DNA of 64,000 bases from a virus. Shown piece by piece: positions 1,267 to 54,567 of the stretch (position 1 is its first letter; each line of letters starts with the position of its first letter). The stretch lies in IMG/VR virus record IMGVR_UViG_3300011116_000922, positions 1 to 64,000 of that record, one strand, 5' to 3'. A program made the position numbers and the translations under genes. Under the pieces are notes generated by a model that was not told the DNA's origin, did no database searches, and saw nothing but the letters and a program-made list of their open reading frames with translations.

Positions 1267-1449
1267 TTACGCCCTTTTCTTGTTTTTTGCTTTGTCTCGT
1301 TCTTCTTTCAAATAAGATATTAGCAAATTTATGTATACCTCGCGCTCCCAAGGTATCAGCGATTCCACCTCCTCAAGTGAGTACTTGTGGTGCTGAACAA
1401 GCGAAAAATTGGTCTTATAGAACGCTGACAGATCCGTATGTGTCAGCAT
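1267..1449 (-). CDS. Small tail-assembly protein, gp51/chaperone-like, in -1 frame of gp26
   Basis: This 60-residue product has the core KYSLEEVESLIPWEREVY, a pattern I associate with small proteins encoded after gp26 in T4-like phages and with tail-assembly chaperone C-terminal parts. Its ATG (1449) shares one base with the gp26 stop (TGATG), so it could be expressed by coupled reinitiation. It also sits in the -1 frame relative to gp26 behind a T_TTT_TTT run, so it could instead be the C-terminal extension of a frameshifted gp26. The reading frame is open upstream of the ATG to the slippery site. The next gene begins immediately at its stop codon. The gene is probably real; the gp51 or GT-like label is tentative. 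Confidence 0.7.
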   Translation of the reverse strand: MLTHTDLSAFYKTNFSLVQHHKYSLEEVESLIPWEREVYINLLISYLKEERDKAKNKKRA

Positions 1450-2156
1450 CAGAGAAAAAAATCAGTGATGTTCTCCATTGCCACATTCATCTTGTTTTGG
1501 CAGGCTGGACATGTAAACCCAAATTCGTACTTTACTGATGGTGCAGACTTTAGATATTCCGTGATTTCCTTGAATTGTTCGGGAAGCATATTCTCTACAA
1601 ACAGGTTGATGTCGTCTTCGTATACATTTCCACGCTCATACACATCATCCTTGTACAGCACTTTGTCTATGCATGAGTAAGTCATTTCAAATATCATGGA
1701 TGCCTCGTCCTTGGTGGCATCCAAATCGTGAATGTTTGGGTATCGCATTACCAGCGTGATGTCGTCATTGATCTTGATGTTTGGATTTCTGTCATCAACA
1801 ATGGTCTGTGTTTGCAGTTTGTCGATGTTGATTTTCACCGGGGTTTTGCCCTCGCACTTGGGGCACTTCACGGTTGGCTTTAGTTCTTCTCCCACAGACT
1901 TTGCGCGAATCTGCAACATGGCATGATTTGCGTCTGCTGCGGGAATCTTCTTTGTGTCCAGTTTGTTTTCCGTGCAGGCAAGGATCATGTTGCGAATAGC
2001 ATCAATTACCTGATTGGGATTGCCGCTTTGGAGCGCGATCAGCAGCACCTTTTCTTCTTTCACCAAGAACGGGCGATACTTCACCACAAGTTTCGATATG
2101 GGTAGGGTCATGGTATAGTACGGTACTGTAGACGGAGCAAGTCTCAATTTTTCCAT
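1449..2156 (-). CDS. 26: Baseplate hub subunit gp26-like (T4_baseplate family), possible tail-assembly chaperone
   Basis: The 235-residue product (T4 gp26 is 208) opens with LPISKLVVKYRPFLVKEEK, characteristic of the T4 gp26 family, followed by a helical segment and a four-cysteine zinc-type site made of CPKC (98-101) and CPAC (216-219). In T4, gp26 acts in assembly of the baseplate hub. The C-terminus reads through seven T residues on the coding strand immediately before TGA, and the downstream ORF begins in the -1 frame. This is the arrangement of gpG/gpGT tail-assembly chaperones in other tailed phages. The family call is strong; the chaperone role is inferred. Confidence 0.82.
   Translation of the reverse strand: MEKLRLAPSTVPYYTMTLPISKLVVKYRPFLVKEEKVLLIALQSGNPNQVIDAIRNMILACTENKLDTKKIPAADANHAMLQIRAKSVGEELKPTVKCPKCEGKTPVKINIDKLQTQTIVDDRNPNIKINDDITLVMRYPNIHDLDATKDEASMIFEMTYSCIDKVLYKDDVYERGNVYEDDINLFVENMLPEQFKEITEYLKSAPSVKYEFGFTCPACQNKMNVAMENITDFFL
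1455..1461 (-). other. Candidate -1 ribosomal frameshift site T_TTT_TTT
   Basis: On the coding strand the gp26 frame reads GAT TTT TTT CTC TGA, which contains an X_XXY_YYZ heptamer (T TTT TTT) phased to the zero frame. A one-base backward slip gives TCT CTG ATG and enters the downstream 60-codon frame without a stop. The fusion would be 296 residues. The phasing is seen directly; use by ribosomes is inferred. Confidence 0.5.
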
Positions 2157-2194: not shown

Positions 2195-2202
2195 TATTTA
2201 TG
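2195..2202 (-). promoter_or_regulatory. Candidate T4-type late promoter (CATAAATA)
   Basis: The minus strand reads CATAAATA, one base from the T4 late consensus TATAAATA. It lies about 40 bases upstream of the gp26 ATG and overlaps the stop codon of the preceding tube-fold gene. An AAAGGA ribosome-binding site follows shortly before the gp26 ATG. The window encodes the late sigma factor gp55, which makes such sites meaningful. Confidence 0.5.
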
Positions 2203-2908
2203 CCTTCTTGGGCGAGAAAATGCTGCCAATGCCATTCATCACATTTGATGCGCCTTCACCGATTCCTTGGAATAGTGCAGCAATTCCCAGACCACTACCG
2301 TTGTTCTTCGGCACATTAGGTGGAGGAAATTCTCCACCGTTGTATTCGGGGAACTGTCTGACATAGAATGCGGATGTGTATTTTCTGAAAGAAAAGGTCA
2401 CTTCTTGAGTCAGGTATTCGTTTTCGCGGTCGTTGGCAAAACTCAAGTCTCCAATCATTTTTGGATACAATTCTTCCACCAACGACACATATGACACCTG
2501 ATCGCTTTTGTCCAGTACATGAACTGCAAGCGTTCCCACATAATCATCGTAGTAGCCCAGTTTGTAGTCGTTGTTGTTGACCACATTACTCATCCATTTT
2601 TCAAAGAACCTGCGTTCCGTCATGTCGCGGGACAGGATGTATGTGAGTGAAATTTCTCCACCGTACAGAATTTCATACGGCATCTGACGAGCAGGGCCGT
2701 AGACGCGATATCCTGTGGTGGAAATGTTTCTGCCCGGAATGGTCACACTCATGCAGCGAATCATCATGTTCGGCATGGTTGGGTTTTCATCTACCATTAC
2801 TTTAGGCAAACGAAACTCTGCAACATATCGGTTGGTGGTCAGAAAACTGTTATCCAGTATGTTGGATATGATATTTTCTACTTTGGATGTGCCTTCGAAT
2901 TGTGTCAT
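2198..2908 (-). CDS. Tail-tube-fold protein (gp19/gp54 superfamily)
   Basis: This 236-residue protein has the pattern of T4-like tube proteins: NRYVAEFRLP near the N-terminus, a CMSVTIPGRNI strand, YGPARQMPYEI, a FFEKWM helix and then GYYDDYVGTL. A glycine-rich tail ending in SIFSPKKA follows. Proteins of this superfamily form the gp19 tube or its initiator gp54. A canonical gp19 exists elsewhere in the window (34068-34682), so this copy is more likely a tube initiator or cap-proximal subunit. It overlaps the upstream gene by ATGA at 2905-2908 and precedes gp26. T4 gp54 is longer (320), so the orthology is uncertain. Confidence 0.65.
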   Translation of the reverse strand: MTQFEGTSKVENIISNILDNSFLTTNRYVAEFRLPKVMVDENPTMPNMMIRCMSVTIPGRNISTTGYRVYGPARQMPYEILYGGEISLTYILSRDMTERRFFEKWMSNVVNNNDYKLGYYDDYVGTLAVHVLDKSDQVSYVSLVEELYPKMIGDLSFANDRENEYLTQEVTFSFRKYTSAFYVRQFPEYNGGEFPPPNVPKNNGSGLGIAALFQGIGEGASNVMNGIGSIFSPKKA

Positions 2909-5460: not shown

Positions 5461-6356
5461 TGTACTTCAAAGAATTTCCTGTTGTCCCGTATCCGTATTA
5501 TATTGGCGACCAACGCCTGTACGCAATTGCGCGAAATGTGCTGCGTAGGGTTGCGCTCACTAGCGTGATTAATGGTCAGGTTGCCTTTATTGAATACAAT
5601 GTCAAGGACGGTGAAAAGCCGGAACATATTGCAAATCGTTTGTACGGAAATTCTGCGTATCACTGGCTGGTGTTGCTGTGCAACAACATTGTTGATCCGT
5701 ATTACGGGTGGTATATGTCGCAGTCCAGTTTGGAGCAGTACACCCAAAAGCGGTATTCGGGAATGGTTGCGTATTTCAGCGATGGCTTGGGTGGATTCAC
5801 ATACAACACCGAATTTGCTCAAGGCTGCACACTGAATCAAAACGGTCAGTCGGTGAGCATCAAAAATTACCGCGATACTTTCTGCGAACTAGCCGTTGAA
5901 ACGCCGTCTGTGAGGGTTGGCAGTGCCACGGTTTCCACTCCCAGTGGTTCCACGGCTAACATCTACATTGAAAAGGTGCTTCCGTACATTTACGGGGTAC
6001 ACAACTTCCAACTGGAAAGACCCACCGGAAGTGCGGAGGGAGCCTGTGGCGCACAAGAGTTTCCGGTAGCCGATCCGCTTTCGCGGCAGACCGCAGATTA
6101 CGAAGAGTACACTCCCGTATTGGGCAATCAATATCCTGCTTTGGGTATTGGTGGAGCAGCAGGAGCAACGGTTCAATTTTGGGAAACCTATATTGGCAAG
6201 TACATGGGAATTTCCGGCGATGAAATCAACACCTATGCCGTAAGCAACTATATCTACGAGCAAAACACCAATGACACCAAGCGAACCATCCGCATATTGA
6301 ACCCTGCCTTTTTGGATCAAGCCATGAAGGAACTCAAAGCGGCAATGGGAGTTTAA
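5460..6356 (+). CDS. 53: Baseplate wedge subunit gp53-like, enlarged
   Basis: The N-terminus carries the gp53 pattern: ANRLYGNSAYHWLVLL and NNIVDPYYGWYMS, preceded by a short β-strand segment with FIEYNVKDGEKPEHIA. gp53 is a small wedge component that completes the wedge before hub attachment. At 298 residues it is about 100 longer than T4 gp53 (196). The extra sequence lies between about 105 and 230, and the usual C-terminal part resumes with GDEINTYAVSNY and RTIRILNPAFLDQAMKEL. The start overlaps the gp48 stop (TAATG). The call is firm; the insert has no recognised function. Confidence 0.88.
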   Translation: MYFKEFPVVPYPYYIGDQRLYAIARNVLRRVALTSVINGQVAFIEYNVKDGEKPEHIANRLYGNSAYHWLVLLCNNIVDPYYGWYMSQSSLEQYTQKRYSGMVAYFSDGLGGFTYNTEFAQGCTLNQNGQSVSIKNYRDTFCELAVETPSVRVGSATVSTPSGSTANIYIEKVLPYIYGVHNFQLERPTGSAEGACGAQEFPVADPLSRQTADYEEYTPVLGNQYPALGIGGAAGATVQFWETYIGKYMGISGDEINTYAVSNYIYEQNTNDTKRTIRILNPAFLDQAMKELKAAMGV

Positions 6357-53307: not shown

Positions 53308-53945
53308 AAACTATTAGACACTATTGCAACGAATCAATTTTTGAACAGCAACTGTTCACCTATCCAAATTTGTATAGAGCAATGGTTCAACATTTTGGAA
53401 CCGGAAGTCATTTCGTGGAAATTGGATGCTGGAAAGGACAATCTGCTTCTTTCATGGCAGTAGAAATACACAATTCAAGAAAAAAAATCAAGTTCGACTG
53501 TGTGGATCATTGGTCTGATGGAGAGGGATGTCCGAATCCAACATGGATGCCCACTGATAAAACACTGTTTGAGGTTTTTTTGAGTAATACGGAAAGGGTA
53601 AACCATATCATAACTCCAGTGCGGATGCGGTCTACGGATGCTGCAAACAAATATTGGGACAACTCTCTTGATTTTGTGTTTATTGATGGCGATCATTCCT
53701 ACGAAGCATGTAAGGAAGATATACTTGCATGGCTTCCAAAAATGAAAACCGGATCCATTTTGGCAGGACATGATTACGGATGGTGTCCTGAAGTCCAAAA
53801 TGCGGTTCACGATGTTTTGGGAGAAAGAATTGAAAAAATTGAAGACCAACACGGTGTTCGATACAAGTCCTATAGCGATCCGTGGGGAGAAGGCTGTTGG
53901 ATGGTTCAAGTAACTAGGAGCGAAAATGCCAGTACCAGCAAGTGA
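53304..53945 (+). CDS. Class I SAM-dependent methyltransferase
   Basis: The 213-residue product has motif I FVEIGCWKGQSASF (about 37-50), an acidic strand end FDCVDHW, and FVFIDGDHSYEACKEDILAW followed by GSILAGHDY, the pattern of the Methyltransf_24 family. The substrate is probably a sugar or glycan given its neighbours. Its codons look AT-richer than those of the preceding gene and the replication genes, which suggests separate acquisition. It overlaps the next gene by 20 bases. Confidence 0.85.
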   Translation: MKTIRHYCNESIFEQQLFTYPNLYRAMVQHFGTGSHFVEIGCWKGQSASFMAVEIHNSRKKIKFDCVDHWSDGEGCPNPTWMPTDKTLFEVFLSNTERVNHIITPVRMRSTDAANKYWDNSLDFVFIDGDHSYEACKEDILAWLPKMKTGSILAGHDYGWCPEVQNAVHDVLGERIEKIEDQHGVRYKSYSDPWGEGCWMVQVTRSENASTSK

Positions 53946-54567
53946 AATTCTTTTAAGCATTCTTATTCTGTCTATTCCGTCCCGAATTGAAAAAGCCTGT
54001 AATCTAATCAAGACACTTGAGGGGCAGTTGGGAGATCGGCGGTCGGTTGAGATCCTGATGTTCAACGACAACCGTTCGCAGACCATTTCCGAAAAGCGGA
54101 ATGTGCTGCTCCATGCTGCCCGTGGACAGTTCGTTTGCTTCTTGGACGATGATGATCGTGTATCAACGGATTACATCGACCAGTTGCTGACGGCAATTGC
54201 TTCGGCTCCAAAGGTGGACTGCATTTCATTTAATCAGTTCTGCTCCATTGACGGCGAACCCATGAATGTGGAATTTGGCATGGGAAATCCTCACGGAATT
54301 CTGTGGCGCGATCCCGAAAACGGTGGTATGTTGGGAGACATTAAGCGTCCTCCGTATCATATGTGCGTGTTCCGCCGTGAAATCGCACAGAGCGAGGACT
54401 TTAATCCCATGACCGGAAAGAACGGGCAGTCCCACGGAGAGGACTTTGATTGGCTTATGCGGCTGTATCCCAAGATTCAGACGGAGCATCACATTGATGC
54501 GCCTCTCCACAATTATGTTTACGATTCCAAGACAACCACTTCACTAGTACCACAGGGAAACACATGA
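53926..54567 (+). CDS. Glycosyltransferase family 2 protein
   Basis: The 213 residues show LSILILSIPSRIEKACNLI, then VEILMFNDN, SEKRNVLLHAARGQFVCFLD and a DDDD run (74-77) serving as the GT-A metal motif. GEDFDWLMRLYP near 170 supplies the usual ED-type acceptor-site acid. It transfers an unknown sugar. The end overlaps the next gene by ATGA. Confidence 0.87.
   Translation: MPVPASEILLSILILSIPSRIEKACNLIKTLEGQLGDRRSVEILMFNDNRSQTISEKRNVLLHAARGQFVCFLDDDDRVSTDYIDQLLTAIASAPKVDCISFNQFCSIDGEPMNVEFGMGNPHGILWRDPENGGMLGDIKRPPYHMCVFRREIAQSEDFNPMTGKNGQSHGEDFDWLMRLYPKIQTEHHIDAPLHNYVYDSKTTTSLVPQGNT

Follow-up and report, generated by a model that had tools for sequence, protein, structure and literature searches.

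The gp26 locus and its neighbours

The window analysed here covers the first 64 kb of a virus contig of 147,410 bases from a T4-type myovirus. Its gp26 site is adjoined by genes for a gp19-like tube protein, a DNA end protector, a head closure protein, a tube cap and a gp53-like wedge (Table 1). The gp26 product scores 186.5 bits against PF12322, above the curated cut-off of 24.5, and belongs to the T4 gp26 family, for which 762 phage records were matched at E ≤ 0.01. A nucleotide search of phage records returned nothing near, and a sequence search of the PDB returned no relative. Two CxxC pairs in the protein, CPKC and CPAC, match zinc ribbons weakly and may bind a metal.

Table 1 Features of the gp26 locus, with positions in the window.
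Feature	Position	Strand	Basis
gp26, short form (TAC-N-like), 235 aa, zero frame	1449..2156	-	PF12322 T4_baseplate E = 7e-55; phrog_150 E = 1e-53
gp19-like tail-tube protein, directly upstream of gp26	2198..2908	-	phrog_45 tail tube E = 1e-31
Internal Shine–Dalgarno-like GGAG, 11 nt before the heptamer	1473..1476	-	sequence and population test
Slippery heptamer T_TTT_TTT, phased X_XXY_YYZ	1455..1461	-	in-phase T_TTT_TTN in 202 of 215 distinct junctions
Predicted downstream hairpin, 7-bp perfect core GCTGACA/TGTCAGC (1447–1441 with 1430–1424)	1421..1450	-	RNA folding, −12.5 kcal/mol
−1 frame tail of the predicted fusion (TAC-NC C-terminal part; called gp51 in cyanophages)	1267..1455	-	phrog_634 E = 2e-25; coding substitution pattern starts just past the slip site
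60-codon ORF starting at an ATG that overlaps the gp26 stop (TGATG); candidate product of reinitiation	1267..1449	-	sequence; no suitably spaced Shine–Dalgarno sequence before the ATG
Start of tape-measure-like gene, 12-residue PPIPGG repeats, ends at the contig edge	1..1266	-	position and features

At its 3′ end, the gp26 frame reads GAT TTT TTT CTC TGA on the minus strand. Re-reading of T1455 after a −1 slip gives ...D F F / S L M L T H..., a frame that stays open up to the stop at 1269–1267 and extends gp26 into a predicted fusion of 296 residues. Beyond the gp26 stop, the −1 frame is open for 60 codons and the +1 frame for only 11. The initial annotation had predicted this slip from the phase of the heptamer (1461 to 1455) and the fusion without a stop that follows, and both are confirmed in the sequence. 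The 60-codon ORF has profile matches to columns 59–117 of the 121 in phrog_634 (‘baseplate hub assembly catalyst’) and to the C-terminal part of phrog_150, the gp26 family, so that phrog_150 already includes proteins bearing the tail. The A of its ATG, at 1449, is the last base of the gp26 TGA, and no Shine–Dalgarno sequence was found at a suitable spacing 5′ of this ATG.

This pair of reading frames lies between the tail-tube gene upstream and the tape-measure-like gene downstream, as in gpG/gpGT-type pairs. The latter gene matched no profile, and a putative tape measure occupies the equivalent place in HTVC008M and phiM12. Inside it, a 36-bp tandem repeat (12-residue PPIPGGSTVATQ-type units) is found at both contig ends, at 1–426 of the window and at 6015–7409 of L288, where an ORF combines the same 12-residue repeats with a hydrophobic stretch. 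The contig break is probably an assembly break within this repeat.

Other in-phase heptamers occur near the ends of ORFs in the window, and none of those inspected opens a comparable conserved tail. One of them, a G_GGA_AAC that lies ten bases upstream of the stop codon in a glycosyltransferase-like gene (53926–54567), was rejected as a frameshift site: its −1 frame is that of an ordinary overlapping next gene, and its occurrence is probably due to chance.

The slip site and the −1 frame are conserved

By combining IMG/VR scans with annotated records of cultured phages, we collected 286 gp26-bearing sequences with 215 distinct junctions, which thin to 147 representatives at less than 85% identity. 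An in-phase T_TTT_TTN is found in 202 of the 215 junctions, with C as the last base in 166, T in 34, and A and G in one each. The remaining 13 junctions all come from Ackermannviridae, as assigned by their closeness to annotated Kuttervirus and Taipeivirus records, and read (A/G)_ATT_TTC with the tail still open in the −1 frame. This motif resembles the T7 gene 10 type of slip site. Among these phages (L270–L287, L093 and L098), neither of the two records viewed annotates the gp51-like tail.

In 214 of the 215 junctions, no stop interrupts the −1 frame for 45 codons or more, the exception being one truncated sequence; the +1 frame is open that long in none. From arbitrary positions within gp26, the −1 frame is open over that length in only 25 of 8,400 trials (0.3%), and thus its openness at the real junctions is not a matter of chance. 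The constraint extends to individual wobble bases. The codon preceding TTT ends in T in all 147 representatives while the residue it encodes varies (Ser, Asp, Asn, His, Ala, Gly, Thr or Phe), and the first Phe codon is TTT in all 147, compared to a TTT:TTC ratio of 956:421 in the gene bodies. At the protein level, Phe233 is nearly invariant and Phe234 invariant. Substitutions in the tail, read in the −1 frame, fall on the three codon positions in proportions of 26/12/61%, similar to the 24/14/62% of gp26, and those in its first ten codons in proportions of 35/16/49%, as expected if these bases serve in a hairpin as well.

Among cultured phages, the signal is found in Kyanoviridae, a Methylophilales phage, Sinorhizobium phage phiM12, Rhizobium and Agrobacterium phages, Pseudomonas phages Astolliot and pf16, Stenotrophomonas phage Yut2, Vibrio phages VH7D and K575, and Aeromonas phage phiAS5; a scan with the gp26 of Vibrio phage K575 as the query found no loci. 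Overall, relatives with as little as about 20–35% identity retain both the slippery run and the −1 phase, and the prediction thus withstands the comparison that the initial annotation had set as its check. The same phase turns up in independent contigs and in cultured phages, which rules out a sequencing error in the T run, a possibility named in the initial annotation, as a general explanation.

Two candidate stimulators flank the slip site

Two further elements, both absent from the initial annotation, accompany the heptamer. A Shine–Dalgarno-like tetramer is present in 129 of the 147 representatives, nearly always beginning 12–15 nt upstream of the heptamer. The predicted pairing with the anti-Shine–Dalgarno sequence averages −6.25 kcal/mol at this element, compared to +0.6 to −3.1 in the other windows of the gene that were tested, and exceeds that of synonymous shuffles (mean z = −0.89, t = −8.5, inflated, as are the significance figures for the hairpin, by counting related sequences as independent). 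Where Glu-Gly is encoded at this place, the Glu codon is GAG in 76 of 102 cases, against 32% GAG across the gene.

On the 3′ side, the stability of the RNA relative to synonymous shuffles peaks immediately after the slip site (mean z = −1.84, with 46% of values below −2 and a similarly inflated t = −12.9), and the excess is gone within roughly 16 codons. The window itself has a strand fold z of −1.86; three weaker pairs can extend the core of its hairpin, which is also present in L002. A 5-bp stem shared by 58 cyanophage-type sequences has double changes at all five pairs, with a covariation score of 0.333 compared to 0.227 for shuffled alignments, a value reached by 0 of 500 shuffles (again with related sequences counted as independent). 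A single consensus hairpin for all lineages was considered and rejected, as the registers differ and the best diagonal of a pooled scan is modest; the clade-wise and synonymous-shuffle tests are positive. Controls that preserve kinship, namely a slid register for covariation and neighbouring windows for the Shine–Dalgarno-like element and RNA stability, gave clearly lower values. By these comparisons, the internal Shine–Dalgarno-like element and the downstream hairpin are under selection.

The same three parts, an internal Shine–Dalgarno sequence upstream, a slippery heptamer and a stem-loop downstream, make up the signal of Escherichia coli dnaX (PMC5600365). Compared with a dnaX-type spacing of about 10 nt for the upstream element and a few nucleotides for the stem-loop, the window has its GGAG 11 nt upstream and its 7-bp stem 7 nt downstream of the heptamer, although the slippery sequence is A_AAA_AAG in dnaX and T_TTT_TTT here, and the functions of the two genes are unrelated.

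T4 makes the long form from a separate gene

In T4, gp26 corresponds to the short form, but the two forms come from separate genes, gp26 and gp51, on opposite strands. The T4 gp26 gene ends GAG TTC TTT GAG, so that the Phe pair is kept whereas the slippery run is gone, and its −1 frame runs into gene 25. T4 gp51 (249 aa) consists of a PF12322 domain (residues 1–201) followed by the tail, is colinear with positions 23–281 of the 296-residue fusion profile and matches phrog_150 over its length; as judged from this colinearity, it amounts to the complete fusion encoded as a free-standing gene. Aeromonas phage 60AhydR15PP is arranged like T4 and likewise has no slip site. The slip site thus accompanies a tail in the −1 frame and, in the two genomes checked, is missing when a separate gene encodes the long form. 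As a correction to the initial annotation, the arrangement is absent from T4 itself; it is present in most of the T4-like phages examined.

Cyanophages have the same gene pair as the window, gp26 and a short ‘gp51’. Sullivan et al. (2010) described gp51 in cyanophages and marine vibriophage as being without the first roughly 200 residues of T4 gp51, and do not mention a frameshift (PMC3037559). The N-terminal part missing from cyanophage gp51 is the one that gp26 would supply through the slip.

A predicted −1 frameshift and its alternatives

We consider it very probable, on the combined sequence evidence, that gp26 and the 60-codon ORF form one tail-assembly-chaperone gene that yields two proteins by a −1 frameshift. 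Sequence comparison shows the slip site, its phase, the coding tail, the Shine–Dalgarno-like element and the hairpin; slipping itself and its rate we infer. Most ribosomes would stop at the TGA and release the 235-residue short form, while a fraction would pause at T_TTT_TTT, held by pairing of the Shine–Dalgarno-like element with 16S rRNA behind and by the hairpin ahead. As the heptamer is decoded by tRNA-Phe, the P-site and A-site tRNA-Phe could both re-pair on UUU one base back, and translation would go on into the −1 tail to give the 296-residue long form.

The tail could instead be made by termination and reinitiation, with gp26 finished at the TGA and a separate 60-residue gp51 restarted at the overlapping ATG. 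The TGATG of the window makes restarting possible there, so that some tail could arise in this way, an in-frame ATG lies at or before +24 in 91 of the 147 representatives, and cyanophage database records list a separate short gp51. Yet in 74 of the 202 junctions the −1 frame contains no start codon (ATG, GTG or TTG) ahead of tail codon 9, and in some the first one comes no earlier than codon 33; reinitiation cannot make the tail in these. Even so, H6, L9 and Y12 of the tail are conserved, which, together with the missing early starts and the substitution pattern of −1 codons, indicates that the tail is read from the slip site. Moreover, only 27 of the 147 representatives have a Shine–Dalgarno-like triplet near an early start, and reinitiation leaves the conservation of the heptamer, the wobble T, the Shine–Dalgarno spacing and the hairpin unexplained. 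We regard it as improbable as an account of the tail; the suggestion that both modes may coexist stands for the window, with its ATG at 1449, but reinitiation is not the conserved mode.

Slippage could also occur during transcription, as the polymerases of phages and bacteria are able to slip on homopolymers, and the seven consecutive T of the window would then yield mixed mRNAs with the tail in frame in some. However, 166 of the 215 junctions have only T6C, which is short for polymerase slippage, and the strict codon phase, the anti-Shine–Dalgarno pairing and the spaced hairpin are signals for ribosomes, leaving this explanation with a slimmer chance still. The slimmest of all falls to the proposal that the FF motif and the tail are conserved as protein features only, and that Phe-Phe and A+T-rich codon use produce the T run incidentally. 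Phe233 and Phe234 are indeed conserved, and T4 gp26 has FF without a slip site; but NNT TTT TTN is kept in all 202 non-Ackermannviridae junctions, which have a −1 tail, T4 has GAG TTC TTT and no −1 tail, and wobble conservation is far above codon usage.

Relation to other tail chaperones

Under the favoured reading, a −1 frameshift within a single gene, the locus resembles lambda gpG/gpGT, with short and −1 extended forms, a tape-measure-like gene just downstream and a tail-tube-like gene upstream, and the likeness to gpG/gpGT drawn in the initial annotation fits. The likeness is one of layout; the slip sequence of lambda is G_GGA_AAG, whereas here it is T_TTT_TTY with an internal Shine–Dalgarno-like element and a hairpin. 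We infer the chaperone role of the gp26 forms from their position and architecture, which are like those of the short and long tail chaperones of other phages. By analogy with lambda, the tape measure would be coated by many copies of the short form and few of the long form, the tail of which would recruit tube subunits. The predicted structure of gp26 has a pLDDT of 90; in Foldseek, 53 viral models matched at E ≤ 0.001, those named being mostly baseplate hub or gp26 proteins, and the HK97 tail chaperone 2ob9 had the highest probability among the PDB matches shown (0.23–0.25, E = 1.4–3.8, not significant).

Frameshifting in gpG/gpGT-type tail chaperones has long been known (Xu, Hendrix and Duda 2004; reviewed in PMC5009743), and the 2016 review describes it as widely conserved ‘except T4’ (PMC5009743). 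Vladimirov, Gautam and Davidson (2022) reportedly identified T4-like tail chaperones, under a title that proposes a mechanism other than frameshifting, and a 2025 paper attributes to them the finding of poly-T slip signals in the chaperone genes of T4-like phages (PMC12846349). Going by that credit, the core idea has probably already been published. The initial annotation was not aware of a frameshift as the standard description for T4-type gp26. Databases do give gp51 a short gene of its own, but T4-like tail chaperones and poly-T slip sites are already under discussion in the literature (PMC12846349), and the frameshift is thus less unheard-of than was supposed. A conserved −1 slip on T-rich GTTTTT, in a tail chaperone gene 5′ of the tape measure, is described for Vandenendeviridae and Andersonviridae (PMC12846349), which are other families with another motif, alike in layout. 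The text of the PRFect paper names no gp26 or cyanophage case.

Tentatively, and with slightly less than even confidence, we propose that the ancestors of the T4 superfamily expressed their tail chaperone by a dnaX-type three-part −1 frameshift (internal Shine–Dalgarno sequence, T_TTT_TTY and a lineage-specific hairpin), and that in the T4 branch a duplication of the gene gave rise to gp26 and gp51, with later loss of the slip site, so that cyanophage gp51 would be no separate protein; within this proposal, the stimulators, the scale of conservation and the R_ATT_TTC of Ackermannviridae would be new to the literature. By the sequence record, the T4 exception is narrow: the slip appears to operate in nearly every known relative outside the T4 branch, most of the T4-like phages examined keep it, and T4 obtains the same two products by other means.

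For annotation, hundreds of cyanophage records contain a separate ‘gp51 baseplate hub assembly catalyst’ that probably represents the tail of a longer protein; in others the tail is missing. None of the gp26 regions viewed is annotated with a joined coding sequence, and in NC_021530, KJ019044, NC_019443, KJ019119 and other cyanophage records the gp51 tail is without any annotation. The more than 200 natural variants of one bacterial frameshift signal offer material for testing the contributions of the Shine–Dalgarno-like element, the heptamer and the hairpin.
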